Source of the DNA: a virus
Virus record (IMG/VR): IMGVR_UViG_3300023170_002041
Coordinates: 1-25,801 of that record
Reading direction: 5' to 3' (one strand)
DNA: 25,801 nt
This document shows positions 11,541 through 23,087 of the stretch, piece by piece; the first letter of the stretch is position 1; every line of letters begins with the position of its first letter. The position numbers and the translations under genes are program-made. Under the pieces are notes generated by a model. It ran no database searches. It saw only the letters and a list, made by a program, of their open reading frames with translations, and was not told where the DNA came from.

Positions 11541-11629
11541 AATTGTTTCCTTATTTTCTCATATTGTTTTTCAGTAATCTTTTTTGCTTGTAAAACTTCA
11601 AGATCTTCTTTGCTAAGTCCCCCAGGCAT
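11537..11629 (-). CDS. Candidate 30-residue peptide gene between QueE and the 69-residue gene
   Basis: A short frame (MPGGLSKEDLEVLQAKKITE and 10 more residues) starts inside the end of the QueE gene (17-base overlap) and stops in a 4-base ATGA overlap with the next gene. The peptide reads as a charged helix-turn-helix-like pair, unlike random sequence, and it fills what would be a 72-base gap in an array that otherwise has few gaps. Against it: no proper ribosome site (GGA only one base from the ATG), so it would depend on re-initiation from QueE translation. Confidence 0.4.
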   Translation of the reverse strand: MPGGLSKEDLEVLQAKKITEKQYEKIRKQL

Positions 11630-12572
11630 TTCCGAATAAGCTGATGTGTAGTCTGGGACTGAATCGCCAGCCTCTTTCCATACACGCTTCTGCCACGTCT
11701 TTAACGTTGAGACTATATTCTTCCGAACGTCCGCCAAGCGGCATAAGATATACTGGACACTCGATGCCTGCTGCACGATATTCTTCAACAGCTCTATTAA
11801 CTTCGTCAAAGTCATCCATAGTAGCAACAACAAACTTGAAATACATATCACTGCCATCCACAAGGGAATACTCACGAGCAACGTCAGGCTTAATAGCATC
11901 ACTCCAAGGTTCGCCTGAAACGGAGAGCTTTGGTGAGCAGCTAAATGTGACTTTAATTCTATCGTTATCGTTGAGATAATTGAAGAAGTCATCATGTAAA
12001 GGTTGTGTAGTATTAGTTTCAATTGTGACATTTTTTAAATCAGCCATTTTAGGATGTTCAAACAACTCTACATAAAGTCGTTGCCAAGCTAGTAATGGCT
12101 CTCCTCCTGTTAAAATAAGATGTACGTCTTGACCATTGTCCATAGTCCACTTGCCTTCTGGCAGTAAACTAATCAAGTGTTCAACAACTTCGTCTACTTC
12201 TGCAAGTTTGTTGAAGTGTTTAAACTCTGGATAGATACTTGCATAAGTATCACAACCTGTATGGATAATAGGCAAGTCTTCAAATTTTTCAGTTGTTTTG
12301 TGTACACCTGCGTCAAGCAATGCTTTTACTTCTGCATTGTAACGCTGACCTTCTTTGTGTTGTTCCCAGCGATCTTTTTTAGTGTCAACACCGAAGTTCA
12401 TACAACGGAAGTTACAACCAAATGTACGTAGGAATACACTAGGTACTCCTACAAACTTTCCTTCACCTTGTACACTATAAAATGCTTCACTGTAACGTAG
12501 TTTCATTGTTGGTTTCCTGTTAACTGCTTCATAAGAAGGATAACCTTTTTCAAATACTGGACTTTCAATCAT
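11613..12572 (-). CDS. queE: QueE-like radical SAM 7-carboxy-7-deazaguanine synthase
   Basis: A 319-residue radical SAM protein converting 6-carboxytetrahydropterin to 7-carboxy-7-deazaguanine in the preQ0 pathway. The QueE features are FYSVQGEG (31-38), TFGCNFRC (50-57), TGGEPLL (156-162), and the C-terminal SPRLHISLFGNAWGT. The cluster-binding cysteines are spread out: C53-x3-C57, then 49 residues, then C107 in a GCDTYAS context that matches the third-cysteine region of normal QueE (CX3CX2C). The extra segment makes the protein longer than bacterial QueE (about 210-250). The start used is the ATG at 12572, overlapping the FolE stop by one base (TAATG). FolE lies directly upstream, so the two pathway steps are co-transcribed. 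Confidence 0.88.
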   Translation of the reverse strand: MIESPVFEKGYPSYEAVNRKPTMKLRYSEAFYSVQGEGKFVGVPSVFLRTFGCNFRCMNFGVDTKKDRWEQHKEGQRYNAEVKALLDAGVHKTTEKFEDLPIIHTGCDTYASIYPEFKHFNKLAEVDEVVEHLISLLPEGKWTMDNGQDVHLILTGGEPLLAWQRLYVELFEHPKMADLKNVTIETNTTQPLHDDFFNYLNDNDRIKVTFSCSPKLSVSGEPWSDAIKPDVAREYSLVDGSDMYFKFVVATMDDFDEVNRAVEEYRAAGIECPVYLMPLGGRSEEYSLNVKDVAEACMERGWRFSPRLHISLFGNAWGT

Positions 12573-13255
12573 TAGCAAGCAAACTCCTGTTGTAATTTAA
12601 TATTGTCAAAGAACTCTTTCTTTGTACCAGGATCTGTTTTAAACGCACCTTTTAGTACAGTTGTTTGTGTAAGTGAACTATGTGCCATAATGCCTCTATT
12701 TTCACAGCAACCGTGTGTTGCTTGAATGTACACACCTAAGTGATCGGCGCCAGTTGCTTTAGCAATCTCACGAGCAATGTCGTTAGCAAGTTCTTCTTGT
12801 AGCGTACCACGTCTAGCACACCATTGTGCAATACGTGTATATTTAGAAAGACCAATTAGTTTAGCACTTGCAATAATACCAATATATGCTACACCAGATA
12901 CTGGCTGATGGTGATGCGAACAAACACTTTTCAGTTCACTTCGTACAACTAACATACCTTCATAACGATCATCGTCATGATTAGGAAATGCTGTTGCACT
13001 TGGAACAGGATCATACCTTCCGCTCATTAATTCATTAAAGTACATTTTAGCAAGACGTTTTGCTGTACCTTGTGAGTTAGGATCGTTGTGTCGATCAATT
13101 AGTAGTGTGTCTAGTACACCTTCAAATGCAACAGTTGCTTCTTCGATAAGTTCTTCCTTATCGCCTTTCTGTAGTACTTCTGAAATGTTGTCGCCAGCCC
13201 AATAGCGAATGTTTGCATCTTGCAAACGGGCTTTAATTTGTTCTGCTTTGCTCAT
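12572..13255 (-). CDS. folE: GTP cyclohydrolase I
   Basis: This 227-residue enzyme converts GTP to 7,8-dihydroneopterin triphosphate, the first step to folates and to 7-deazaguanines. The zinc site matches FolE: C112 and H115 in VCSHHHQPV and C183 in ATHGCCENRG. The catalytic His residues are at 114 and 181, and the core LIGLSKYTRIAQWCARRGTLQEEL is clear in shorter form (LSKYTRI, ARRGTLQEEL). The residue between the first Cys and His is Ser rather than the usual Glu. The ATG at 13255 has CGGAG upstream and follows a strong consensus promoter at 13298-13326. With QueE next in the same transcript, a queuosine/deazaguanine role is more likely than folate supply. Confidence 0.93.
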   Translation of the reverse strand: MSKAEQIKARLQDANIRYWAGDNISEVLQKGDKEELIEEATVAFEGVLDTLLIDRHNDPNSQGTAKRLAKMYFNELMSGRYDPVPSATAFPNHDDDRYEGMLVVRSELKSVCSHHHQPVSGVAYIGIIASAKLIGLSKYTRIAQWCARRGTLQEELANDIAREIAKATGADHLGVYIQATHGCCENRGIMAHSSLTQTTVLKGAFKTDPGTKKEFFDNIKLQQEFAC

Positions 13256-13270
13256 TTAGTTCTCCGAGTT

Positions 13271-13288
13271 ATAGACGAGGATGTCTAT
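13271..13288 (-). promoter_or_regulatory. Hairpin in the folE leader
   Basis: A perfect 6-bp stem (ATAGAC/GTCTAT) with a 6-base loop would form almost at the 5' end of the folE mRNA, between the expected start site near 13291 and the ribosome site. It could stabilise the transcript or influence initiation. It is too small and simple to call a riboswitch. Confidence 0.3.
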
Positions 13289-13297
13289 TATGTTGTT

Positions 13298-13326
13298 ATT
13301 ATATACTTTATTTAGGTTTTTGTCAA
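13298..13326 (-). promoter_or_regulatory. Perfect-consensus sigma70 promoter for folE-queE
   Basis: On the minus strand TTGACA (13321-13326), exactly 17 bases, then TATAAT (13298-13303). Both hexamers match consensus fully. It occupies the 13256-13331 gap, with the start site about 35 bases before the folE ATG. It would be read by the unmodified host polymerase early in infection. Confidence 0.85.
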
Positions 13327-13331
13327 GTATA

Positions 13332-13532
13332 TTATGCAAAATATCCATCAATAACTTCTAAAATATCATGATATTTTGCTATTTCCATCATTTCTTTTTC
13401 AATCTCATCCATTACATCTCCGTGTTCGCCGATGCCTGCTGGATTGTTTAGTAGAATTTCTACGTTCATTCTGTGCTTTTCAACGTGTCCTAGTGCATGA
13501 TCTCTCGATGCTTTAAGTAGTTGCTGTCTCAT
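13332..13532 (-). CDS. Small conserved marine phage hypothetical protein
   Basis: A 66-residue protein, apparently all helical (MRQQLLKASRDHALGHVEKH), with a conserved NPAGIGEHGDVMDEIEKEM segment (30-48) and an end reading YHDILEVIDGYFA. I recall closely similar proteins in cyanophages without function. It overlaps the upstream HIT gene by 20 bases and ends just before the folE promoter, so it is the last gene of its transcript. Confidence 0.7.
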   Translation of the reverse strand: MRQQLLKASRDHALGHVEKHRMNVEILLNNPAGIGEHGDVMDEIEKEMMEIAKYHDILEVIDGYFA

Positions 13533-13875
13533 TTTTATAGTTTCCTTTCTCTGGTATCACGTGCCGCACTCCTCCACGAGGATCTTCCATATCACCCTTG
13601 CGGCGGGGGATGAGATGTACATGTGGATACATAACAGTTTGACCTGCTTCTTCGCCTATATTTTGACCGATGTTGTAAGCATTGCAATAACCTTTTTGCA
13701 CCCAGTCATGGCCCCATGCATAGGCTGCTTTGTAGCACTTAGCCAAATGGTCCCAATCTTGTACCTTAGGCACAAAAAGAACATGTCCTTCGGTTACAGG
13801 AAAGCCGTCTTTAAATACAGTATATTCTTTGGTATCTATTAGTATGTCCTTCCAAGGTACTTCGTTAAACTGCAT
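13513..13875 (-). CDS. HIT-family protein
   Basis: A 120-residue histidine-triad protein (nucleotide hydrolase/transferase family). The N-terminal half has FPVTEGHVLFVPK (25-37), and the catalytic region reads VMYPHVHLIPR with H85 and H87. Aligned to the H-x-H-x-H motif, the last two His are present, including the catalytic middle one, while the first is Tyr. The ATG at 13875 is preceded by GAGGAAGAG, so the longer frame to 13890 (a TTG) is not used. It overlaps the glycosylase gene by 11 bases. HIT enzymes cleave dinucleoside polyphosphates or nucleotide conjugates. Nearby nucleotide-sugar genes make such a role reasonable but unproven. Confidence 0.83.
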   Translation of the reverse strand: MQFNEVPWKDILIDTKEYTVFKDGFPVTEGHVLFVPKVQDWDHLAKCYKAAYAWGHDWVQKGYCNAYNIGQNIGEEAGQTVMYPHVHLIPRRKGDMEDPRGGVRHVIPEKGNYKNETATT

Positions 13876-14260
13876 AAAACTCTTCCTCAATGTATCTTTT
13901 TAATTCGTGATCACCTACATTTTCAGGTAGTTCTTTTTTATAAAACAGCCTATAACTATCGCTACCGTACTTTCCAATGCCATATAACTCTGTAGCATCT
14001 TCGCCGTCCCAATCTCCAAACTGTTCGCTCATTCTATACAGTCTTTCTGCTCGAACTCGTTTCATTCCTAACGGTGCAATTACTTCTTCAATCTCGTCTC
14101 TTGTTGCATGAAGTAATGCAGTGTGCGTTGGCCATTTAGAAAAGAAAACAGGTAGAACAGCCTTTACTTGTTTTCTGCCTGTTTGGTTTAAACACATGAC
14201 GCCCACCATATGTTGCCAAACATTTTCTACTTGCTGTTGCACCATTAAATCATCTCTCAC
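13865..14260 (-). CDS. HhH-GPD DNA glycosylase resembling the MBD4 catalytic domain
   Basis: A 131-residue protein of the helix-hairpin-helix DNA glycosylase superfamily. The pattern CLNQTG (23-28), the hairpin GIGKYGSDSYRLF (94-106) and the catalytic-Asp segment VGDHELKRY (Asp117) resemble the glycosylase domain of animal MBD4 (known GIGKYGNDSYRIF and DHKLNKY), more than EndoIII or MutY. It lacks the iron-sulfur cluster cysteines of EndoIII. MBD4-type enzymes remove T or U opposite G. The start chosen is GTG at 14260, in a 4-base GTGA overlap with the preceding stop; an ATG at 14245 is the alternative. It is short (about one domain) but complete. Confidence 0.8.
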   Translation of the reverse strand: MRDDLMVQQQVENVWQHMVGVMCLNQTGRKQVKAVLPVFFSKWPTHTALLHATRDEIEEVIAPLGMKRVRAERLYRMSEQFGDWDGEDATELYGIGKYGSDSYRLFYKKELPENVGDHELKRYIEEEFYAV

Positions 14261-14817
14261 TGTCCGACATTCTCCCAGGGATAAACTAACCAAACATCTT
14301 CTTCTGACTTGTTTACTTCATGCACACTGTAGTCTACAGTGCCGTCAAACTCGCTTGATAAGTTATCTGTAATAGTAGCAAAGCGAACGTTCTTGTGCCA
14401 TACGCTATCCCAAGTACTTTCTTTTGGTAGACAACTGCTTTGCCAATCCTTTTTTATCCAGTTAAATGTAGCACCAGTATCGTTAATATCATCTACAATA
14501 AGAATGTTTTTGCGTTTGCTTAGGTCCCAACGAGTTTTATAAATTTCACGATCTTCTTCGTTTACATAACCAAAAGCATCTTCGCTCATCCAACAGTTAC
14601 TTTCGCAACCGTTGTCATCTCCGTTATCACGTAAACTAATCTTTAGTGCTTCTCCACGCACATTTAACATATTAGATAAAATAGTTGCAGGAACATTGCC
14701 GCCTCGTGTAATACCTACAATGTAGTCAGGCTTCCAATTGTCATTATACATTTGCAGTGCAATGTTTAGGCAAGCACGTTCTATGTCCTGCCACGAATAG
14801 TAATGTTTCTTAATCAT
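14257..14817 (-). CDS. Phosphoribosyltransferase-family protein
   Basis: A 186-residue type I phosphoribosyltransferase. The PRPP-binding signature is ILIVDDINDTGAT (105-117) and the pyrophosphate loop is TRGGN (37-41). An insertion of about 45 residues between them includes two cysteines (CESNC). The family interconverts nucleobases and nucleotides (hypoxanthine/xanthine/guanine type), or acts as a regulator. In a phage with a deazaguanine pathway it could handle an unusual purine, but that is inference. The ATG at 14817 forms an ATGA overlap with the upstream stop, and AATG/GTGA overlaps lead on to the glycosylase gene. Confidence 0.85.
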   Translation of the reverse strand: MIKKHYYSWQDIERACLNIALQMYNDNWKPDYIVGITRGGNVPATILSNMLNVRGEALKISLRDNGDDNGCESNCWMSEDAFGYVNEEDREIYKTRWDLSKRKNILIVDDINDTGATFNWIKKDWQSSCLPKESTWDSVWHKNVRFATITDNLSSEFDGTVDYSVHEVNKSEEDVWLVYPWENVGQ

Positions 14818-15044
14818 TTCAATGCCTCAAAGGTTTTGTATTTTTCAAGTTGTTCTTCGTAAGCATCCTTTAGTTCTTTTAGTTTAGGATACTTTGCTTC
14901 CATATCTACATCACGCTTTAATAATAACAGAGAATCACGCATTTCGTCAAGTTCTTTTAGTATGTCTCTACCTTGTACAATAGCCCGACCCTCTACAGTA
15001 AGAGAGTGTTCTACAGGAAATATGCTTTCAATATGATCACGCAT
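14814..15044 (-). CDS. Small helical hypothetical protein
   Basis: A 76-residue charged protein predicted to be mainly coiled coil (ILKELDEMRDSLLLLKRDVD). The start is the ATG at 15044 with GGAG nine bases upstream in the end of the cupin gene; the longer open frame upstream lies under the cupin gene and is not protein-like. It overlaps the cupin gene by 8 bases and the phosphoribosyltransferase gene by 4. Function unknown. Confidence 0.62.
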   Translation of the reverse strand: MRDHIESIFPVEHSLTVEGRAIVQGRDILKELDEMRDSLLLLKRDVDMEAKYPKLKELKDAYEEQLEKYKTFEALK

Positions 15045-15486
15045 CGTCTTTGGCTCCGCGGGCAAGGTACTGCTCGTTATGGATCCATTCTCCGTCTTTG
15101 AGGAATCCCCATTCAGTGGCTTTCTTGCCCATGAAGAAAAGACTCCAGCAAGGGATTTCATTACCATGTTCATCTCTTTCTAATTCTAAATAGTGCAAGT
15201 CACTGGCTTTGCGATAACGGAAGTGACCAGGTCCTCTCCAGTAGCGTCCTTGAGGAGTATTCTCCCAGTAGCCACCTTTTAGGATAAGTGTAGCATATGA
15301 CCAAGGATGATCGTGCAGTGTGGGCTCATCACTTAGCAATACTTTGTGTAGTGTGATGTTAAACGGAAAACGCTTTCTATCTTTGAGAAAAACGTAATAA
15401 CGGACTAGATAAGGAACATCGCTATCACGCTCTGTGATAACACGTCTACGTCCTAGTTTGTCCATAATCTTAGAAAGGAATGTCAT
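15037..15486 (-). CDS. Cupin-like metal-binding protein
   Basis: A 149-residue protein whose middle has the cupin metal pattern: H58-x-H60 (TLHDHPWSYATLILKGG), Glu75 in GYWE, and H98 in SDLHYLEL. Cupins of this size are dioxygenases, isomerases or sugar-nucleotide enzymes. The start chosen is the ATG at 15486, with GGAGAG seven bases before it; a TTG six bases further up is less likely. The N-terminus is basic (MDKLGRRRVITERD). It lies between a small acidic protein and a helical protein in an overlapping chain that continues to the glycosyltransferase, so action on a sugar or nucleotide is possible. Confidence 0.7.
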   Translation of the reverse strand: MTFLSKIMDKLGRRRVITERDSDVPYLVRYYVFLKDRKRFPFNITLHKVLLSDEPTLHDHPWSYATLILKGGYWENTPQGRYWRGPGHFRYRKASDLHYLELERDEHGNEIPCWSLFFMGKKATEWGFLKDGEWIHNEQYLARGAKDDA

Positions 15487-15784
15487 CGTCAATCTCTCCT
15501 GCCTTTATCTTTCCTTCATAATCTTGTTGCACCATATCGTACACTGATTTAAAATTACGCCAAACCTTTTCTAATGCTGGATATTGTTTACACATTTTTT
15601 CAACTTCACTAGGCCAAATACCATCTTCACCTGTTAAGTTCCAAGTATGGCTATCATAACTTACTTCTGATGTATTAATTGTAAATGTACCGTCGTTAAG
15701 ATATGAAGTATCGATTGTAATATCTTCACCGCTTACATAATCATCTATATTAATAGTAATTGTATCAGTTTTTGATTGCGTCAT
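15470..15784 (-). CDS. Small acidic hypothetical protein
   Basis: A 104-residue, strongly acidic protein (ITINIDDYVSGEDITIDTSY). The first half is beta-rich with repeated T/D/I strands, and the second half is a conserved helical part (MCKQYPALEKVWRNFKSVYD) that I recall from cyanophage proteins. The ATG at 15784 (MTQSKTDT) is preferred over the frame start at 15799, as GGAG lies nine bases upstream. It overlaps both neighbours by about 20 bases. No known function. Confidence 0.68.
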   Translation of the reverse strand: MTQSKTDTITINIDDYVSGEDITIDTSYLNDGTFTINTSEVSYDSHTWNLTGEDGIWPSEVEKMCKQYPALEKVWRNFKSVYDMVQQDYEGKIKAGEIDDDIPF

Positions 15785-16826
15785 ACAGTGCCGCTCCACT
15801 AAAAAATTCTTTGCTTAGTTTAGTTCTTTGTTTTTCTAAACTGACGAGATAGTCATTATAGTTTTCCATGTAGTCGCGAATCTTAGCAACAAGTTCGCCA
15901 CGATACTTAATATATGAACCCCAGTCTTCAGTCCATTTGCTAGGATACTTAAACTCTGGTAATGCCATTTCTGTATAGCTCAGTCTATCTGGCACCATAG
16001 GAATAGCATCTACAAGTGCGCCTTCGTACCAACTAATGCCTAGTGTTTCTTGTAAATTAGCTGAGAACACCATCTTTGCTTCACCTAGCAAGTTATGATA
16101 TTCGTTCTTTGTAAGCGAACGCTCTTGACAAACTACAAACTCATATTCAGAGAGATGATGAGATAAATCACGGAAGATTTCAACTTGTTTTTCAGGAGCA
16201 ATACGATGCGGAAACAAGATAAGGTTACGCTTGTCCATGCCACTGTAAGTAACAAGCGATTCTTTCAAATACTCCATAGGCCATCCTACACGTTTTATAC
16301 TATCGTCTGCCCATACTTCGCTATAGTCAGGTACAAATACGTCTTTAAACATATCAATATGAAAGTCTGTAGCAAAGAAGTTATCATCGTAACATTGGAA
16401 CATTGACATTTCTGCATGACGTACCCAACGAGCATCGCCTATTAGTCGTCCAAGAAAGTCTTGAGGATCATAGCTGCCAGCATGCCAGAGACCGCCGACA
16501 TTAATATCTGTGCCAAGAAGGCTAGCCATGTATCGTAACTGAATAACGGTAGGGTTCCAAGCATCAGTGTAAAGGAAATAGTCCCCACTATTAATTTTGC
16601 CGTCGCAGAAGAGTCGACCAATCTGCTCAAGCTGATTAGACTTGTAAACATTTGTACCTCCAAAATTGAGAAACGCCCCAGGTGTTGTAGCCTGCGGCGC
16701 CTCTCCTCCACTTATTACAACAACTTTTTCATTCGTAGCTCGTTGCAGTTGACGCGGAAGGTGTTCTTTCCACTGCTTTGTATAGCGTGTGTCAACTGCT
16801 TCAATGTCTACGATGTAAATAGTCAT
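15765..16826 (-). CDS. GT-B glycosyltransferase (GT4-like)
   Basis: A 353-residue retaining-type glycosyltransferase. The C-terminal nucleotide-sugar domain has FPHRIAPEKQVEIF (205-218) and an exact E-x7-E motif, E260 to E268 (ETLGISWYE), followed by IPMVPDRLSYTEM. The N-terminal acceptor domain is divergent. The acceptor cannot be read from the sequence. DNA bases, virion proteins or a host glycan are all possible, and the surrounding deazaguanine genes make a modified base an attractive guess. The ATG at 16826 has GGAG upstream and touches the preceding stop (TAATG). Nucleotide-sugar genes at 20517-23087 could supply its donor. Confidence 0.85.
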   Translation of the reverse strand: MTIYIVDIEAVDTRYTKQWKEHLPRQLQRATNEKVVVISGGEAPQATTPGAFLNFGGTNVYKSNQLEQIGRLFCDGKINSGDYFLYTDAWNPTVIQLRYMASLLGTDINVGGLWHAGSYDPQDFLGRLIGDARWVRHAEMSMFQCYDDNFFATDFHIDMFKDVFVPDYSEVWADDSIKRVGWPMEYLKESLVTYSGMDKRNLILFPHRIAPEKQVEIFRDLSHHLSEYEFVVCQERSLTKNEYHNLLGEAKMVFSANLQETLGISWYEGALVDAIPMVPDRLSYTEMALPEFKYPSKWTEDWGSYIKYRGELVAKIRDYMENYNDYLVSLEKQRTKLSKEFFSGAALYDAIKN

Positions 16827-17038
16827 TAATTTCTCCGATTATTAAATTTGCGTCCTGCATTGCGAGCTTTTGCTCGCATCCATCCTTGCCATTTTTGATA
16901 GGCTTCCCAATTAGGGTCGTCCTTGTTATACAAAGCTTTTTCATCAAAAACTTTGCCTTCGAAGCGACAATAGTCGCGATACTTATCTAAGTCGTTAAAC
17001 ACTTTAGTATATGCTTCACGATTAAATTCGATTGCCAT
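16826..17038 (-). CDS. Small basic hypothetical protein
   Basis: A 70-residue protein with a charged helical N-terminus (MAIEFNREAYTKVFNDLDKY), an aromatic middle (WEAYQKWQGWMRAK) and a basic tail (RNAGRKFNNRRN). The basic C-terminus suggests nucleic-acid contact, no more. AAGGAAG precedes the ATG at 17038. It shares one base with the glycosyltransferase start. I recall similar small proteins in marine T4-like phages. Confidence 0.65.
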   Translation of the reverse strand: MAIEFNREAYTKVFNDLDKYRDYCRFEGKVFDEKALYNKDDPNWEAYQKWQGWMRAKARNAGRKFNNRRN

Positions 17039-17059
17039 TTTATTCTTCCTTTAATAGCA

Positions 17060-17524
17060 TTAATTTGGTTTAGGATAAAAGATTGAACAGCCATTTTCAT
17101 TATCTTCAGCTACGCTGATCTCTACAAAGCGGCCGGGATACTTTGCAGAAATTTCATTGTACAAGTCATCTGCGATCATCTCACAGCTCTTGTGATTTAA
17201 CTCTAGTACGCCTTCAACGTCATAGAGTCGTTGCATCCAGCGTTTAAACTGAATGAACTCAATATCGCGATCGTTATGAAATACTTCAATACGAACACGA
17301 AAGTGAAAGATATGGCGATGTGGAATACCAAGGAATGATACATCATCCCAATCGCCTGTTGCTAGTGCAGGGTCTTTGTCAGCACCTGGATACATATGTA
17401 CACCTTCTTTTGCAAAGGTAACCCAAATACTGCGTTCTGCTTTACGCATTACATTGTCTTGCGCCATTTTAAAATCTTCTTCTCTCATTCTACGTGCCAT
17501 ATAATCGTGGTAGCGTTCTTGCAT
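17060..17524 (-). CDS. queD: Divergent QueD/6-pyruvoyl-tetrahydropterin synthase-like protein
   Basis: Up to 154 residues with the layout of the 6-PTPS/QueD family. A first His (H43 in GVHMYPG), the HxH pair H69/H71 (GIPHRHIFHF) and a C-terminal Glu (E140 in AEDNENG) correspond to zinc and active-site positions. The catalytic Cys that normally stands just before HxH is absent (SFLGIPHRH), and the D-H pair is altered (LELNHKSCEMIA). Activity is therefore uncertain. In the preQ0 pathway QueD makes 6-carboxytetrahydropterin from the FolE product. The ATG at 17524 would be almost leaderless given the promoter at 17534-17562; the ATG at 17467, with AGAAGAAGA upstream, is an alternative and loses only a charged leader. 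Confidence 0.7.
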   Translation of the reverse strand: MQERYHDYMARRMREEDFKMAQDNVMRKAERSIWVTFAKEGVHMYPGADKDPALATGDWDDVSFLGIPHRHIFHFRVRIEVFHNDRDIEFIQFKRWMQRLYDVEGVLELNHKSCEMIADDLYNEISAKYPGRFVEISVAEDNENGCSIFYPKPN

Positions 17525-17533
17525 TGTCTTTAT

Positions 17534-17562
17534 AGTATACTTTCATTCTATAACTTTGTCAA
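17534..17562 (-). promoter_or_regulatory. Sigma70-type promoter for the QueD-like gene
   Basis: On the minus strand TTGACA (17557-17562), 17 bases, then TATACT (17534-17539). The -35 and spacer lie inside the last codons of the 177-residue protein gene. The start site would fall within a few bases of the ATG at 17524. Confidence 0.75.
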
Positions 17563-18076
17563 GGCCATATTTCGTCCAATCCGTAAATTTATTACGGTCC
17601 ATTAGATCATGTAGGCTGTGACACCAAACACCTGGATTGGTTGCGTTAAAATCCTTATCATCCAATTTAATCATGGTGTTATAATTATACTGTTTGATGT
17701 AAGGAAGGGGAATACGAATCTGCGGAATAAAATTATCGCACTCAATCATACGACTTTCAAGCAGTGCTTCCGCATGACTGTAAGGAAGATCTAAACTACA
17801 AAGAATTCCCTTGTCAAGGAATGTCATAACCAGTTCTTCCCATTCGTCCCATGCATCTGCATCTTTTGGAAAGTTTACTCCTGGGTTGAAACTGTGATTA
17901 GCACCAAAGAAGATATGTTCACACTCTTCGTCAATAAAATGTTTTTCAATTAGATAGACGTCTTGTACACCAGTTACAAATAAAGTTTTCTTTCCAATAG
18001 CAGGAGTCTTTTCAACTTCTACACCTGTAAAGAAGATAATATCTTCTGCTACACCTGTTTCGTAATCTCGTTTCAT
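17543..18076 (-). CDS. Conserved phage protein of unknown function in the deazaguanine region
   Basis: A 177-residue protein with a soluble alpha/beta look: AEDIIFFTGVEVEKTP (10-25), KTLFVTGVQDVYLIEKHF (30-47), HIFFGANHSFNPG (54-66), and a conserved end ATNPGVWCHSLHDLMDR (144-160). I recall homologues in cyanophages without function. It lacks the SGGxDS and CxxC motifs of QueC, so it is not a QueC. It lies between the QueD-like and DpdA-like genes, linked by ATGA overlap to a small upstream gene, and may have its own promoter (18175-18203). Position alone suggests a part in the same pathway. Confidence 0.72.
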   Translation of the reverse strand: MKRDYETGVAEDIIFFTGVEVEKTPAIGKKTLFVTGVQDVYLIEKHFIDEECEHIFFGANHSFNPGVNFPKDADAWDEWEELVMTFLDKGILCSLDLPYSHAEALLESRMIECDNFIPQIRIPLPYIKQYNYNTMIKLDDKDFNATNPGVWCHSLHDLMDRNKFTDWTKYGLDKVIE

Positions 18077-18276
18077 CCTAGTGCCTTTAGTTCTGTTTCA
18101 AGTCTGTGAATTTCATCTTTAAGCCAAAGTTTTTGGGTTTTTTTACGGTTAATTGCACCGTCGTCTTCCCATTTATTATACATGTCTTTTATCTCGTCGT
18201 CAAGCTTTCTATGACGTTTATATAACTCTTGTAGATAATTTGCAATTTTATTGTGCTTCTCCGTGAAGTTGCTCAT
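18073..18276 (-). CDS. Small coiled-coil hypothetical protein
   Basis: A 67-residue, highly charged helical protein (YLQELYKRHRKLDDEIKDMY), probably a short coiled coil. The ATG at 18276 is preceded by GAGGA seven bases upstream, inside the 3' end of the DpdA-like gene (29-base overlap); the frame start at 18282 is a TTG. It ends in a 4-base overlap with the 177-residue protein gene and its coding sequence contains a promoter candidate. Function unknown. Confidence 0.62.
   Translation of the reverse strand: MSNFTEKHNKIANYLQELYKRHRKLDDEIKDMYNKWEDDGAINRKKTQKLWLKDEIHRLETELKALG
18175..18203 (-). promoter_or_regulatory. Candidate sigma70 promoter inside the 67-residue gene
   Basis: On the minus strand TTGACG (18198-18203), 17 bases, then a perfect TATAAT (18175-18180). 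It lies within coding sequence and would drive the 177-residue protein and the genes after it. The near-perfect match and spacing equal those of the other promoters here. Confidence 0.5.
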
Positions 18277-19792
18277 CTTCAAGTTCCTCTAATTTAGTTT
18301 CATCAAGCTCGTTTTCATCGACAGTATCACTTTCATCGACTTCAAATAAATTATCAAAAAATGTGCTTGCATTTACAGTCTTTTTACCAACTGCACCCCT
18401 AGTACCAGGAATAGCCATCCAAAAACGGCTATGCTCGTCGACAAGTGCTAGTGCCTTGTCTTTGTCGTCTGTTGCAAATATTTCTTCCACAACATCTCTA
18501 AAAAATACCCTGTCAAATTGCTCTTGAACAAGCATGCGCGGAACGCATCCATTGTCGTATTGTCTGTTTGCTTCTTGTACTGCATTAATGTGACTCCATA
18601 CATTATGACCCATTTGGATAGCGTAGGAAAAACTATCCCAAGACGTTTTGCCCTCTTTACCTATTTTGTTTAGGTCTCCTGGAGCATACGTACAAACGTC
18701 TGATACTTTGAGTTCGGCAGTAATGGGACTGTCTTCAAAGTTTTTAAATATCCCATCTGATATAACAGCATCTCTAAACAAGCGTTGATCTGTAGCATAT
18801 TTCTTATTGTCAACTGACGGCACCATACGATACGTCCATTTGCTTCGGTCTTCAGTCTCATTCTGAATGTAGATTTGTCCATTCGCGGTTGCCAAGAAAG
18901 GACTAGCACAGTCAAAAGTAATAGTATAGTTTTCATTATGATGTTTCCGTACTGCTCGTTGAATATCAGTTAGTAGTGTAGCCCACTCTAGTTTGCTTGT
19001 ACCTAGGAAGTGCATAAAGTCTTGCACACCTTTTTCAAGTAAACCGTCATAGCGTAGTGCAATCAATCTTTTAAGTACAAGATGTACATCGCACATATTC
19101 TGACCACCCATTGACCACCCATTAAAATGTTCATTTGGATATTGTTTAGGATCACTGTACTTCTTCATACGCTGATACCAATCTTCTGCGTCAGCGTGAT
19201 TTTCACCTTGTAGAACGTTTAAAAATTTACAGTTGCCGTTGCGGTTACGAATAAACCAATCGTTGTTAATGTAAGTACCTTGTACTGCTTCCATGTAACT
19301 AGTGATACCAGTTGCTTTTTGTCCTGCAGGCGAACGTGCTACCCACGCAGGAATATCAAGGATCATACCATAGTCCATATAAGCATCCATCCACGTAAGC
19401 ACCTGCTCACGTTTCTTTTGTGCTTTTGGACAGCTAGGATCTTTCCAATCACCTTCCCAAACGCCTTTACCAATCTGGAAGCCGCCTGAGTCGCCTAGTA
19501 TCCAACTGTTGTTACGATCTCTGTTACGCACCATATCTTCTTTTGGAGCATGCTTGTTTACATCAAGATCGGCATGACCTGCAGAGTAAAGTGTCCAGTG
19601 ATAATTAAACAATCCATCCTGCTTATTTAGGTAGTTAAGACTTTCAACACCATTTGTAAAATTTGAAGGAATACGTGCAGGATCTACATAGTTATCAAAA
19701 CGTTGTTTACCTACGTAAGTGGCATAAAAGCCACTTAACGCAGGAAGAAAAACAGCATAATCTTTTTGTGTTGCAGTTAAGTCTCTATTCAT
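18248..19792 (-). CDS. dpdA: DpdA-like DNA/tRNA-guanine transglycosylase family protein
   Basis: A 514-residue member of the TGT superfamily. Hallmarks in order: ILGDSGGFQIG (98-108, catalytic/base-binding Asp101), NVLQGENHADAEDW (192-205), FNGWSMGG (223-230), HFLGTSKLEWATLL (261-274), and ITFDCASPF (291-299), with Asp294 at the TGT nucleophile position. The CxCxxC zinc site of bacterial TGT is not seen. The C-terminus is a long acidic tail (VDESDTVDENELDETKLEEL). Phage DpdA enzymes swap guanine for a 7-deazaguanine in DNA, and FolE, QueE and a QueD-like gene are nearby, so DNA rather than tRNA is the likely target (inference). The ATG at 19792 overlaps the clamp stop by one base, so it is expressed with replication genes. 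Confidence 0.8.
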   Translation of the reverse strand: MNRDLTATQKDYAVFLPALSGFYATYVGKQRFDNYVDPARIPSNFTNGVESLNYLNKQDGLFNYHWTLYSAGHADLDVNKHAPKEDMVRNRDRNNSWILGDSGGFQIGKGVWEGDWKDPSCPKAQKKREQVLTWMDAYMDYGMILDIPAWVARSPAGQKATGITSYMEAVQGTYINNDWFIRNRNGNCKFLNVLQGENHADAEDWYQRMKKYSDPKQYPNEHFNGWSMGGQNMCDVHLVLKRLIALRYDGLLEKGVQDFMHFLGTSKLEWATLLTDIQRAVRKHHNENYTITFDCASPFLATANGQIYIQNETEDRSKWTYRMVPSVDNKKYATDQRLFRDAVISDGIFKNFEDSPITAELKVSDVCTYAPGDLNKIGKEGKTSWDSFSYAIQMGHNVWSHINAVQEANRQYDNGCVPRMLVQEQFDRVFFRDVVEEIFATDDKDKALALVDEHSRFWMAIPGTRGAVGKKTVNASTFFDNLFEVDESDTVDENELDETKLEELEDEQLHGEAQ

Positions 19793-20520
19793 TACTTACT
19801 CTGAGCTGGAAGAATATAAGCGTATTTTGCCATACCCGAATCTACTGAAATTTGCATTGCACCTTGATCTGAAATACTCATAGTTAAATCACCATCTAGA
19901 TTTAAGATACTTTGTACTTGTGCTACTGGCCAACTCCAGGTGTGTTGTAAACTTCCCTCAACACCGTGTTGAAAAATAAACTCGCCTGCGTGTGTGCTTG
20001 CATCACCAAAGCTAAACACTAGATTGCCATCTTCTGTTTTTACTTTGAAAACAGTTTCTTCTGAATGTGCTGCACTTTGTAATTTCATACGTGCAATAGA
20101 TGCTACGCTTGGTGTAAAACTTACATTCCAATTTGCACCTTTGAACTTAACAGTTTTAAGTTTTTCCTCAATGATTGCTTTGTTCATAAAGCGATAATCA
20201 TTCTGAAAATCACCTGCGGCATTTTCAAAGTGAATGTGTGTCGGAACTGTTTCACCATTACGTTCTGCTTCGACAACTTCAATCTTTGCGTCCTTTTGGT
20301 ACTCAGGATTTTTTAAATGCAAATTTAGTTTGTCTAAGTTAGGCATACCAAATGTGCCTTTAAACTCTTGTATTGATGAGTGTGTTTGTGCTGATAAAAT
20401 AACAGAACGATCTTCTGCCATTGAGTCAATTTGTGTGCCTTCTTCGTTGCTAACTTTAACCAAACTAAGAAATCCTAGTGAGTGTGTATGTGCAACAATA
20501 TCTTGTAAAATGTCTTTCAT
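19792..20520 (-). CDS. 45: DNA polymerase sliding clamp (gp45-like)
   Basis: A 242-residue protein matching the sliding clamps I recall from marine T4-like phages. Its regions are DILQDIVAHTHSLGFLSLVK (3-22), ESMAEDR-like SMAEDRSVILSA (33-44), VKFKGANWNVSFTP near 144-157, and the end AMQISVDSGMAKYAYILPAQ. Length is close to T4 gp45 (228). Clamps form a ring that tethers gp43 polymerase and also activates late transcription in T4. The ATG at 20520 overlaps the epimerase stop (ATGA), and a perfect-consensus promoter lies just upstream. The polymerase gene is 2.8 kb further right on the same strand. The identification rests on recalled similarity, not on a catalytic motif. Confidence 0.83.
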   Translation of the reverse strand: MKDILQDIVAHTHSLGFLSLVKVSNEEGTQIDSMAEDRSVILSAQTHSSIQEFKGTFGMPNLDKLNLHLKNPEYQKDAKIEVVEAERNGETVPTHIHFENAAGDFQNDYRFMNKAIIEEKLKTVKFKGANWNVSFTPSVASIARMKLQSAAHSEETVFKVKTEDGNLVFSFGDASTHAGEFIFQHGVEGSLQHTWSWPVAQVQSILNLDGDLTMSISDQGAMQISVDSGMAKYAYILPAQSK

Positions 20521-21302
20521 GTGACTGTTTCTCCATTGAATAAAGTTATTATATTGTCTAAGCCTTTGTTTGTCAAGAACTTTTCTACTGTATATTTAGG
20601 TTTAAAGCCTAGTGCCTTCATTTTTTCTGTATTAGCGCAAGTCCATTCTCGCTCTCCTGGGGTATTTAGACGCACCGGCAAATCAGGTGCTAAGTCTTGG
20701 ATCCTAACAGGATGCCCCGTACCAATATCAACCACTCCGTTTACATGTGTTTTTCTAATTAGTATTTCGATTGCATCTAGAACATCTTCAATATGTATAA
20801 AATCTCTATAATGTCTGGTAACATATTCTAATTTACCATTTTTTAATTTATTAAAGAACATGTTTTCTCTAGGACAATTATCGGAATACACTGTATGAAA
20901 ACGCATACCTAGTGTATTTGGATAACGCTCCCCTAGTTCTTCAAGTATGTATTTACTAGCCGCATAAGGGTTCAAATCGGGCTCGTATGCGCTCGAACTG
21001 CTCGCATACAGTATACGTGTATCAGGATAGCGTTCAAACAGTCTGCGGCTTGCTTCTACATTGTTAAACCAGTACCCTGCAGGATCTTTTAAACTTTCAC
21101 GTACACCACTTTTACCTGCTAGATGTATAATTAGATCAAACTCTTCTTTTAAATCACATGTGAGCAAGTCTTGTGTTTGGTTTAGCTTATCTCTATCCCA
21201 ACCGTCAATTAAGTCAATACCTATTACTTGATTGTTCTTTTTTAATCTTTTTAGTAATGCAGAGCCTATAAAGCCTCTATGTCCTGTTAGTAAAATCTTC
21301 AA
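20517..21302 (-). CDS. NAD-dependent epimerase/dehydratase (extended SDR), TTG start likely
   Basis: A 261-residue extended short-chain dehydrogenase/reductase. The nucleotide-binding GHRGFIG is at 7-13, SSSSAYEPDLNPY leads to the catalytic Y113-x3-K117, and DFIHIEDVLDAI follows, as in UDP-sugar epimerases and dehydratases. It is shorter than the typical 300-340 residues. The start chosen is TTG at 21302, which forms a 4-base TTGA overlap with the phosphomannomutase-like stop, has AAGGA nine bases upstream, and places the first strand at the N-terminus (KILLTG). An ATG at 21329 is possible but has no ribosome site. With the neighbouring sugar genes it probably makes a modified nucleotide sugar. 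Confidence 0.83.
   Translation of the reverse strand: MKILLTGHRGFIGSALLKRLKKNNQVIGIDLIDGWDRDKLNQTQDLLTCDLKEEFDLIIHLAGKSGVRESLKDPAGYWFNNVEASRRLFERYPDTRILYASSSSAYEPDLNPYAASKYILEELGERYPNTLGMRFHTVYSDNCPRENMFFNKLKNGKLEYVTRHYRDFIHIEDVLDAIEILIRKTHVNGVVDIGTGHPVRIQDLAPDLPVRLNTPGEREWTCANTEKMKALGFKPKYTVEKFLTNKGLDNIITLFNGETVT
20548..20576 (-). promoter_or_regulatory. Perfect-consensus sigma70 promoter for the clamp gene
   Basis: On the minus strand TTGACA (20571-20576), 17 bases, then TATAAT (20548-20553), wholly inside the last codons of the epimerase gene. The start site would lie about 20 bases before the clamp ATG, with GGAG upstream of it. Transcription would also reach dpdA. Confidence 0.8.
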
Positions 21303-22006
21303 TTTGCTATTCCTTGTTCTTGGAACCATTGCAGATATTCTAAAGTGTTACCCCAGTGAGATATAGCTCTGTGATGATGTACAATTTTTGCTAATGGATA
21401 GTCATTACCGCCTTCATCCATAGAGTCTCCAAAAAACCATAAAACATCTTCCGGATCAAAATCTTTTTTAATTTGACTTTTGTCCATTCCTTTTGGACTT
21501 ATATCTAGTCCTGTTTCTCCGCCTACTTTTGCATCGAGTTCTGTAAAGATTAAATTAAAGTTATGTGCAATGAGATCACGCTCGTTATATTCTGTGTCCC
21601 ACGTAACATATTTTGCACGTTCTATTTTATCTGCGTTACGTCCTACAATACTAAAGTTACACATACCGGGACGATGTTCAAAGTGTAAGCCTGTCCGTAA
21701 AGGAAATGCACTAGCACTTAGTTGCTCGCTTAACCATTCTTGTGCTGTTTCTGGAAGAATCCATTTGTTTTGACGTACATTAACTTCACCTTCCCATACA
21801 TCATTACCATTACAATTATAAACTCTAACACAGTTGTTGTAAATATCTTTGCCAATTTGTTCTATAGTTTTGGGTTTATCACTTCCTGTTACCAAATAAA
21901 CATCATTACTCTTACAAAAATCTAAAAAGAAAGATTTAAATTTAGGACTCATTATACCTCTGCTAGGAGTAAGTGTACCATCCACATCAAATATAAACTT
22001 ATTCAT
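21299..22006 (-). CDS. HAD-superfamily phosphatase resembling eukaryotic-type phosphomannomutase
   Basis: A 235-residue HAD protein with motif I FDVDGTLTP (D7 nucleophile, D9), a SDKP-type motif II region (VTGSDKPKT), and motif IV FFGDSMDEGGND. The FEHRPGMCNFSIVGR and VGGETGLDISPKGMDK segments match the cap of eukaryotic-type phosphomannomutases (FRNGMLNVSPIGR, GGQISFDVFPDGWDK), which interconvert mannose-6- and mannose-1-phosphate. Length is near that family's 245. The start is the ATG at 22006 with AAGG upstream; the longer open frame lies under the neighbouring gene. Between an epimerase and a nucleotidyltransferase, a sugar-phosphate role is likely. It could also act as a plain sugar phosphatase. 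Confidence 0.8.
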   Translation of the reverse strand: MNKFIFDVDGTLTPSRGIMSPKFKSFFLDFCKSNDVYLVTGSDKPKTIEQIGKDIYNNCVRVYNCNGNDVWEGEVNVRQNKWILPETAQEWLSEQLSASAFPLRTGLHFEHRPGMCNFSIVGRNADKIERAKYVTWDTEYNERDLIAHNFNLIFTELDAKVGGETGLDISPKGMDKSQIKKDFDPEDVLWFFGDSMDEGGNDYPLAKIVHHHRAISHWGNTLEYLQWFQEQGIAN

Positions 22007-22172
22007 TTGGACCTTCGCACCATGCTGTTTCAGTAGGAGGTAGATCGTAAGACAGTTCTCTCCAAGCATCTTGGCATTGCCATGCATATTCATATTCTGC
22101 AATACGAGTAACTCTGGGTTCAACTATGTCATCAGTTGCATAAACATAACTTAATACTAACAGTGTCCACAT
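21999..22172 (-). CDS. Small hypothetical protein with short hydrophobic N-terminus
   Basis: A 57-residue protein beginning with a hydrophobic stretch (MWTLLVLSYVYA) followed by a soluble, aromatic and acidic part with two Cys (WQCQDAW, AWCEGPNE). The hydrophobic part is too short for a full membrane span, though it could serve as a signal or peripheral anchor. The start is the ATG at 22172, since AAGGAG lies eight bases upstream within the 31-bp repeat; a frame start at 22199 ignores this site. It overlaps the phosphomannomutase-like gene by 8 bases. Unknown function. Confidence 0.62.
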   Translation of the reverse strand: MWTLLVLSYVYATDDIVEPRVTRIAEYEYAWQCQDAWRELSYDLPPTETAWCEGPNE

Positions 22173-22496: not shown

Positions 22497-22678
22497 CCTT
22501 GCTGTGCCTTGTGCTGTGCAACCTTTTCTGCTTTAGATAAATCACTAAATCTATCAGCAACCTTTCTTAAATCTTTTCCATGGGTACCAAGACTTTCTAG
22601 TTGCCTAGCAATATTGTGCAAAAGAATAATCATGTCACCGTCTGTTAATGGTGTACGTCCTTCAGGTAATTTAGACAT
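22493..22678 (-). CDS. Small conserved marine phage hypothetical protein
   Basis: A 61-residue helical protein (MSKLPEGRTPLTDGDMIILL, then HNIARQLESLG) with a charged C-terminus (SKAEKVAQHKAQQG). I recall closely similar small proteins in cyanophages. The ATG at 22678 has GGAGAAAG upstream in the end of the cytidylyltransferase gene (8-base overlap), and it ends in an ATGA overlap with the membrane protein. No known function. Confidence 0.68.
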   Translation of the reverse strand: MSKLPEGRTPLTDGDMIILLHNIARQLESLGTHGKDLRKVADRFSDLSKAEKVAQHKAQQG

Positions 22679-23087
22679 TTTCTTTCTCCGATACTCTTTT
22701 TCGTAAATCGCTTGATGAAAAGCGATGATCTCTTTTGTTAAAATATAAATCTATGTCACGTTTACGACAAATATCTTTGCCAGTAAAGTCTCTATCTCTA
22801 TACTCTTCTCCTAATATTCTAACATCAATATGATACATTGTCAAGATATCTTCTAGGTCTTTTTCGCTAGAATATGGAACTATTTCGTCTACATAGCTTA
22901 CTGCTTTTAGTTGAGTGTAACGCTCTACAATAGTTTGTATTGGAGCGTTCTTATCTGTTCTATCTTGACTAGGGTCAAATTGTAACCCGCAAATCAAATA
23001 ATCACATTGTTCTTTTGCTTCACGCAACATTTGTACGTGACCTGCATGTAGTAGATCAAAGGTCGAACAAGTGAAGCCTACTTTCAT
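22671..23087 (-). CDS. Cytidylyltransferase-like nucleotidyltransferase
   Basis: A 138-residue protein with the nucleotidyltransferase signature FTCSTFDLLHAGHVQML (H14-x-x-H17) and the second signature R-x-S-S-S at 122-126 (HRFSSSDLRKR). Length and motifs match the small glycerol-3-phosphate cytidylyltransferase-like enzymes (TagD type), which form CDP-activated alcohols or sugars. The substrate cannot be fixed from the sequence; sugar-phosphate and glycerol-phosphate are both reasonable. The phosphomannomutase-like and epimerase genes follow in the same direction, suggesting one pathway. The ATG at 23087 forms an ATGA overlap with the preceding gene. Confidence 0.85.
   Translation of the reverse strand: MKVGFTCSTFDLLHAGHVQMLREAKEQCDYLICGLQFDPSQDRTDKNAPIQTIVERYTQLKAVSYVDEIVPYSSEKDLEDILTMYHIDVRILGEEYRDRDFTGKDICRKRDIDLYFNKRDHRFSSSDLRKRVSEKENV
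22816..22844 (-). promoter_or_regulatory. Candidate internal promoter in the cytidylyltransferase gene
   Basis: On the minus strand TTGACA (22839-22844), 17 bases, then TAGAAT (22816-22821), a 5/6 match. It would serve the small genes from 22678 onward. It lies in the middle of a gene, so chance is a real alternative. Confidence 0.35.

Follow-up and report, generated by a model that had tools for sequence, protein, structure and literature searches.

DpdA and DpdA2, transglycosylases of phage deazaguanine systems, were defined by Hutinet et al. (2019; PMC6884629), and the DpdA of phage 9g, studied experimentally in that work, makes G+ together with Gat-QueC; KVP40.0122 has been named DpdA2 (PMC8056088), and phage PA5oct has already been credited with a system for deazaguanine synthesis and incorporation (PMC7824862). 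The stretch considered here, called the window, is the complete IMG/VR record IMGVR_UViG_3300023170_002041 (25,801 bases), a 25.8-kb fragment of a phage in which FolE and QueE genes share one strand with a transglycosylase gene joined to that of a protein taken as sliding clamp (Table 1). Three further genes, encoding a paralog within the QueD superfamily, a GT4-type glycosyltransferase (GT) and a conserved protein called p177, belong to this deazaguanine module, which is new in this analysis. We judge it rather probable that the region is a DNA-modification module that branches at 7-carboxy-7-deazaguanine (CDG) and ends in a probably decorated, perhaps glycosylated base, a chemistry that we infer from computed folds, conserved active-site residues, gene order, co-occurrence and promoters.

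Several known phages resemble the window in part. PA5oct carries polymerase, clamp, transglycosylase, GT, paralog, phosphoribosyltransferase (PRT), QueE, RNase H and AAA ATPase genes in the same order, and QueC was not found in it; it differs in that its transglycosylase is 35% identical, its p177 lies 28 kb away and its PRT is detected by profile only. Phage ACP17 likewise has a single array, made up of QueD, FolE, p177, a DpdA-type gene, GT, the paralog and QueE, but its transglycosylase is phrog_10773, related to the window family by profile only (91.5% when pooled with those of X1 and BUCT-ZZ01). Phosso keeps clamp, paralog, GT, FolE and QueE together, with the transglycosylase elsewhere in its genome, and in Vibrio phage 2.275.O clamp, a transglycosylase of the window family, QueF, YhhQ, QueC, FolE and QueE follow each other with few genes between them. 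The DpdA2 proteins of nt-1 and KVP40 share with the window enzyme a fold like that of tRNA-guanine transglycosylases (TGTs; R9TGF0 of nt-1), and the KVP40 gene lies beside FolE, QueF and QueC; this relation is seen by profile (to one KVP40 sequence) or fold (to nt-1) only, and the window family differs from DpdA2 in being clamp-linked, mostly without QueC, and accompanied by paralog, GT and p177. The DpdA of 9g (DpdA1), like the window enzyme, adjoins a replicative clamp, together with FolE, QueD, QueC and QueE, but the clamp order is opposite, the protein has 317 residues and it reads DSGAFS instead of DSGGFQ. It is annotated 8 bases from that clamp (L215 8-961, L175 2006-2998), so that a link between DpdA and clamp occurs in a second, distant subfamily. 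Reportedly, Cui et al. in 2023 added the subfamilies DpdA3 and DpdA4, found phage DNA to contain dCDG and 7-deazaguanine, and predicted a CDG decarboxylase, DpdL; the window transglycosylase family or the paralog may be identical with a DpdA3, a DpdA4 or DpdL. Among the papers listed by a search of the open-licence literature, judged by titles and the opening of abstracts, we found none on a glycosylated phage deazaguanine.

The TGT fold of the window transglycosylase and its tie to deazaguanine synthesis genes are firm. An AlphaFold2 model of the 514-residue protein, made from an alignment of 68 relatives (pLDDT 91.1, pTM 0.90), gave 59 Foldseek matches at E <= 0.001, of which the 50 displayed are all TGTs (best E 3.6e-7), though their TM scores, roughly 0.3-0.55, are modest; the 50 displayed VIA matches are also all TGTs, led by the Thermotoga enzyme (Z 19.0 over 301 residues, rmsd 4.2 Å), and matches in a viral fold library include the Motura transglycosylase (4.6e-11), Vibrio nt-1 R9TGF0 (E 3.9e-9) and a phiST protein (1.6e-3). 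Invariant in 68/68 aligned relatives are D101, S102, G104, Q106, D146, N192, G196, H261, G264, D294 and S297; D101 and D294, which we take to be the catalytic aspartates of TGTs, stand in the motifs DSGGFQ and FDCASP, by which a preliminary description of the window had recognised a TGT-superfamily enzyme, rightly in view of the fold. Of the TGT zinc site (CxCxxC plus a histidine), only C367 (67/68) and H396 (68/68) are left in the family, and because of this loss we place the protein outside the TGTs, as a divergent relative; the Vibrio GR7B protein has CNCPVC. The window protein went unrecognised in searches of Pfam, PHROGs and NCBIfam, and the profile of the 68 relatives found no match among PDB sequences. 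When the family profile was compared with 192 open reading frames from 20 loci, the best three were the GR7B protein (97.6%), the ACP17 protein (94.5%) and the KVP40 DpdA2 (75.9%, E 2.3e-5), hhalign values that each come from one pairwise comparison in which the target side had few sequences. Together with the fold and with FolE and QueE nearby, this likeness to phage DpdA-type proteins upholds the earlier placing of a DpdA-like enzyme beside preQ0-pathway genes. Very probably, then, the protein is a DpdA-type enzyme of a divergent subfamily without the TGT zinc site, and one that very probably has DNA as its target. Its relatives are encoded in at least 599 stretches of IMG/VR; by tblastn against 50,697 phage records, among which matching phages are often related, it was found in 14, namely 11 PA5oct-type Pseudomonas jumbo phages, Sinorhizobium Phosso and the Vibrio phages 2.275.O and GR7B, the last of them with a weak match. 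Scans of IMG/VR with the PA5oct and 2.275.O proteins as queries found nothing.

Gene order was followed in 161 IMG/VR loci, 80 from close relatives (L001-L080) and 81 from distant ones (L092-L172); both sets contain near-duplicate phages and share one contig (L016 recurred in the second scan), and the counts are not those of independent events. The pathway had been called dispersed, which is misleading, as its genes form one conserved same-strand array: the complete order clamp-transglycosylase-p177-paralog-GT-PRT-FolE-QueE is found in 34 loci, most others being cut or missing a part. Among the 94 loci having at least 6 kb downstream, p177, paralog and GT occur together in 84, paralog and GT in 6, and none of the three in 4. 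The clamp family is present in 78/80 close and 78/81 distant loci, and in 51/77 and 39/76 same-strand cases the end of its gene falls in the range from 20 bases within the transglycosylase gene to 200 bases ahead of it. On the coding strand the window has seven promoter matches of at least 11/12, four of them inside the module, before the clamp (20576, perfect), FolE (13326, perfect), the paralog (17562) and p177 (18203), and none on the other strand, whereas 200 first-order Markov resamples averaged 0.65 and never exceeded 3. The matches before clamp, FolE and paralog are kept in relatives (Table 1) above the 18/462, 7/234 and 20/387 of random stretches, a control that disregards gene boundaries. 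The p177 promoter was rejected as a conserved element (8/131 loci, background), and relatives are also at background before the transglycosylase (4/158), GT (3/116), PRT (1/86) and QueE (5/50). Because the promoter is kept before the clamp and not before the transglycosylase, the latter gene is probably transcribed from the clamp promoter, and the module may be read as three transcription units: clamp-transglycosylase, paralog-GT and FolE-QueE. What the preliminary description had read of this arrangement is sound: clamp stop and transglycosylase start share one base (TAATG), their coupling agrees with the promoter conserved before the clamp and with the annotated neighbourhood of the 9g DpdA, and FolE and QueE, whose genes overlap, stand under one consensus promoter, a perfect match (13326-13298) directly upstream of FolE.

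The paralog had been described as QueD-like, a label that we do not retain. The window protein has no Pfam match and PF01242 matches 2/34 family members (best 0.013), while a PDB profile search gave 4 rows at chance level. The cysteine before HxH and the Asp-His pair of QueD, presumably catalytic, were by eye not found in 10 aligned paralogs and were seen in the QueDs of the same phages; the paralogs keep metal-type histidines H43, H69 and H71, plus E140, in 34/34 rows. Moreover, a separate true QueD (PF01242) occurs in 19/35 records, 9/24 from IMG/VR and 10/11 isolates, the latter including PA5oct, Phosso, 2.275.O, phiST, ACP17, X1 and BUCT-ZZ01, with none in D479. Profile comparison of the paralog with QueD gave 72.2% with 15 QueDs, against at most 1.5% for nine controls, and 27.7% with 10 QueDs, the C-terminal part alone being confidently aligned. 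By tblastn the paralog matches 25/50,697 phage records. Its real start is probably further downstream, because its promoter ends at 17534.

As for the GT, PF00534 matches 24/37 aligned members (best 8e-12), the window protein itself being without a Pfam match; in the EX7E motif E260 is kept in 32/37 and E268 in 37/37, and a PDB profile search gave weak glycosyltransferase rows (best 0.15). By tblastn it was found in 19/50,697 phage records, namely 11 PA5oct-type phages, Phosso, ACP17 (two entries), X1, PhiXhv-12/-15/-16 and Erwinia Ep032, and 19/19 have a DpdA-type gene (for ACP17, one of the two entries was examined). The first 15 carry the QueD paralog, 12 of them with a window-type transglycosylase; X1 and ACP17 have the phrog_10773 transglycosylase, filed as unknown in PHROGs and annotated as queuine tRNA-ribosyltransferase in X1, and the remaining four (PhiXhv-12/-15/-16 and Ep032) have a GR7B-type gene. 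In BUCT-ZZ01 the GT was found by profile. Contiguity of the GT with DpdA or the paralog holds in PA5oct, Phosso, ACP17, X1, BUCT-ZZ01 and bacterial loci. A GT acting on hydroxymethylcytosine was considered and set aside: the presence of a thymidylate-synthase-family gene in 6/13 records makes this candidate less probable. In PhiXhv-12 (L217 5861-9095) the GT homolog adjoins genes annotated as glutamine-fructose-6-phosphate aminotransferase and GlcNAc-malate deacetylase, which hints at an amino sugar. Near the window's clamp lie genes for an NAD-dependent epimerase (20517-21329), a phosphomannomutase-like protein (21299-22123) and a cytidylyltransferase-like protein (22671-23087), found in 57, 53 and 58 of the 80 close and in 20, 0 and 12 of the 81 distant relatives; these could supply a nucleotide sugar.

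The model of p177 had no Foldseek match at E <= 0.001, and its best VIA rows included SbcD (Z 6.1, 99 aligned residues), RsbS (6.0, 92) and the QueE structures 5th5 (5.9, 131) and 6nhl (5.8, 124). We do not claim kinship with QueE, as the VIA rows tie with SbcD and RsbS and profile comparison gave 5.9% against 3.1% for a clamp control.

The preliminary description saw no QueC, and this stands: the window record, a 25.8-kb fragment, gave no match, and QueC and QueF profiles each matched 0/161 loci, in searches that cover the locus flanks. The QueC profile has four rows, one of which (GR7B) is a wrong-strand translation with stops, and still recovered the QueC of 2.275.O, 9g and GR7B. In 20 further records QueC matched strongly only in 2.275.O and the control 9g, and weakly in X1. 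YhhQ-like transporter genes occur in 3/161 loci (L134 13127-13900, L011 16323-16940, L117 13328-13969), which suggests that in some phages a precursor may be imported as well. The two outcomes offered earlier, that the modification stops at CDG or uses host QueC, are incomplete, since they miss the conserved paralog, GT and p177; these suggest a third option, a branch from CDG to another, probably decorated base.

The association extends to cellular genomes, where a scan with the QueD-paralog profile gave 37 loci (flanks of up to 8 kb examined). QueC was found in none of the 37, a DpdA-type gene in 19, GT in 22 and one or more of FolE, QueD and QueE in 26; seven of the loci (L221-L227) resemble phage sequence. 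GT, paralog and DpdA-type gene occur together, with no polymerase or clamp match, in 10 loci: five Magnetospirillum contigs, Rhodospirillaceae, Aurantimonas, Methylobacterium, Verrucomicrobia and Deltaproteobacteria. The M. aberrantis locus may be a mobile island, because a phage-type integrase and a CoiA-like nuclease lie nearby. In seven loci from actinobacteria the paralog is accompanied by QueD and FolE, and in 4 of these also by QueE, but in none by a DpdA-type gene. In Paenibacillus polymyxa (L249 163-11051) QueE, QueD, FolE and the paralog occur with a weak GT4 match and with genes for a NodU-like, a radical SAM/SPASM and a sugar-dehydratase-like protein; this looks like a cluster of deazaguanine natural-product or secondary metabolism.

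Table 1. Features of the window discussed in the text, with the support for each; paired locus counts refer to close and distant relatives.
Feature	Position	Strand	Support
QueE, 7-carboxy-7-deazaguanine synthase (radical SAM)	11613..12578	-	PHROG QueE-like 1.2e-52; NCBIfam QueE models 1e-13 or weaker, below cut-offs
FolE, GTP cyclohydrolase I	12572..13255	-	Pfam GTP_cyclohydroI E 3.3e-37; NCBIfam FolE 1.9e-38 (below its cut-off)
Perfect sigma-70-type promoter match upstream of FolE-QueE	13298..13326	-	TTGACA-17-TATAAT; >=11/12 in 56/78 relatives
PRT, xanthine/guanine PRT-like, probable accessory	14257..14817	-	Pfam 1.4e-12; 54/80 and 32/81 loci
GT4-type glycosyltransferase, module member	15765..16826	-	PF00534 in aligned members, EX7E motif
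70-residue protein between paralog and GT, function unknown	16826..17038	-	69/80 and 29/81 loci
QueD-superfamily paralog, not QueD	17060..17524	-	phrog_17812 (function unknown)
Promoter match 11/12 upstream of QueD paralog	17534..17562	-	>=11/12 in 59/129 relatives
p177, conserved protein, function unknown	17543..18076	-	73/80 and 58/81 loci; model pLDDT 91.8
Small DUF465 protein	18073..18282	-	Pfam DUF465 5.4e-10; 70/80 and 24/81 loci
DpdA-type guanine transglycosylase (very probably), TGT fold, zinc site lost	18248..19792	-	Structure model, fold searches, conserved columns, profile comparison
Protein taken as sliding clamp	19792..20520	-	phrog_12062 (function unknown); family of genes annotated sliding clamp in Phosso
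Perfect promoter match upstream of clamp-transglycosylase	20548..20576	-	>=11/12 in 100/154 relatives

Among the remaining genes, the window FolE is 65% identical to that of Phosso and overlaps the QueE gene. QueE keeps CxxxC, and its third cluster cysteine appears to be shifted 49 residues by an insert, to a CDT motif; in its relatives CxxxC is followed after 42-50 residues by CD[ST] in 38/54, with the usual CxxxCxxC in 2/54 and the pattern unmet in 13. The PRT matches 8/50,697 phage records: six that have the paralog (BUCT-ZZ01 and five entries of the phiST type) and two Brevundimonas phages; in one of these two that was examined, MaInes (L216 7319-8474), FolE adjoins a xanthine phosphoribosyltransferase amid nucleotide-metabolism genes. 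The window also encodes a base-excision-type glycosylase of the HhH-GPD family (13865-14293; Pfam 4.6e-7), found in 17/80 close and 1/81 distant relatives.

It is tempting to arrange these genes in a pathway, of which substrates, products, order of steps, DNA target and protection from restriction are all our inference. FolE, QueD (the host's or one elsewhere in the phage genome) and QueE would convert GTP to CDG, which the QueD paralog, possibly with p177, would process in place of QueC, decarboxylation being one option. The DpdA-type transglycosylase would then put the product in the place of guanine in freshly replicated DNA and, as clamp and transglycosylase share a promoter, this insertion would probably be timed with replication; the GT4 enzyme would then probably add a sugar. 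The PRT may recycle the guanine set free; alternatively, it might act in a base-to-nucleotide step by analogy with tubercidin synthesis, which includes such a step.

Several observations weigh against this reading. PF01702 matches 3/68 members of the transglycosylase family (best 0.046) and, in a search of 20 records, was found in GR7B alone; the 9g DpdA is not among the 25 best of the 192 open reading frames compared with the family profile, and this profile, searched in 9g, ACP17, X1, BUCT-ZZ01, phiST and Campylobacter phage NCTC12673, found no match. The 19 GT records stem from only about five or six lineages and are not independent cases, and in PhiXhv-12, the one of its group of four that was examined, the GT stands apart from DpdA, among amino-sugar genes. 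QueC is not missing everywhere either: the paralog-bearing Vibrio phage D479 gave a partial QueC-family match above the cut-off, and PF06508 gave four weak matches in 16 long relatives (E 1.2e-5 to 5e-4), two of them slightly above the cut-off. We rejected these four as real QueC, since by eye that of L082 resembles TilS and the others PP-loop proteins; their best stretch scores 14.6-21.5 bits, while the QueC genes of 2.275.O and 9g reach 172 and 191. Finally, the paralog occurs without GT in phiST, RHph_I1_18, D479, Bakedbeans and Ahp1.

This last finding suits an alternative that we think unlikely, though it fares best among its kind, in which the pathway ends in plain CDG, or in plain 7-deazaguanine after decarboxylation by the paralog, and GT and p177 act elsewhere. 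QueC is mostly missing, a phage without QueC alone could carry CDG (Hutinet et al. 2019; PMC6884629), and plain 7-deazaguanine offers no obvious handle to an O-glycosyltransferase; yet the GT is confined to phages with a DpdA-type gene (19/19) and in the phages and bacterial loci named above is contiguous with DpdA or the paralog. We hold it improbable that the phage draws on host QueC and inserts preQ0 or something derived from it, the adjoining paralog, p177 and GT then having no part in the pathway. Vibrio 2.275.O, with a transglycosylase of the same family, does carry QueC and QueF, host QueC is common (the family was matched in 12/14 control genomes), and the 9g DpdA inserts preQ0 in E. 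coli (Hutinet et al. 2019; PMC6884629). However, the phages carry FolE, QueE and often QueD, which hosts often have too, so that the loss of QueC alone would need another reason; 84/94 loci retain p177, paralog and GT as a set, and the paralog stands with FolE, QueD or QueE in 26/37 cellular loci, with no QueC in the flanks. That the transglycosylase modifies tRNA, raising queuosine-type modification during infection, is very improbable: the closest solved structures are tRNA enzymes and a tRNA role has been proposed for phages with pathway genes but without DpdA (Hutinet et al. 2019; PMC6884629), but the clamp-linked gene order and promoter, the lost TGT zinc site and a profile closer to phage DpdA-type proteins than to PF01702 argue otherwise, none of them being proof.

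The module branching at CDG remains our preferred reading, and its most specific form, which we advance tentatively and at less than even chance, is that the DNA of these phages and of some bacterial islands contains a 7-deazaguanine bearing a sugar or another hypermodification, for which the paralog, with p177, diverts CDG, a clamp-coupled, zinc-less DpdA inserts the product and the GT4 enzyme caps it with a sugar. The conserved trio of paralog, GT and p177 is the most valuable new point, as it connects three proteins that lacked an explanation with the 7-deazaguanine pathway of DNA modification, and it is joined by a large clamp-linked DpdA-type family whose window member went unrecognised by Pfam, PHROGs and NCBIfam. 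The paralog, a QueD look-alike that co-occurs with FolE, QueD and QueE and no QueC in the flank in bacteria, archaea and phages, is also likely to be misannotated. From the module one would expect DNA to hold a base that does not belong to the preQ0 branch and, if the proposal is true, a glycosylated deazaguanine in DNA would be the counterpart of the glycosylated queuosines of tRNA.

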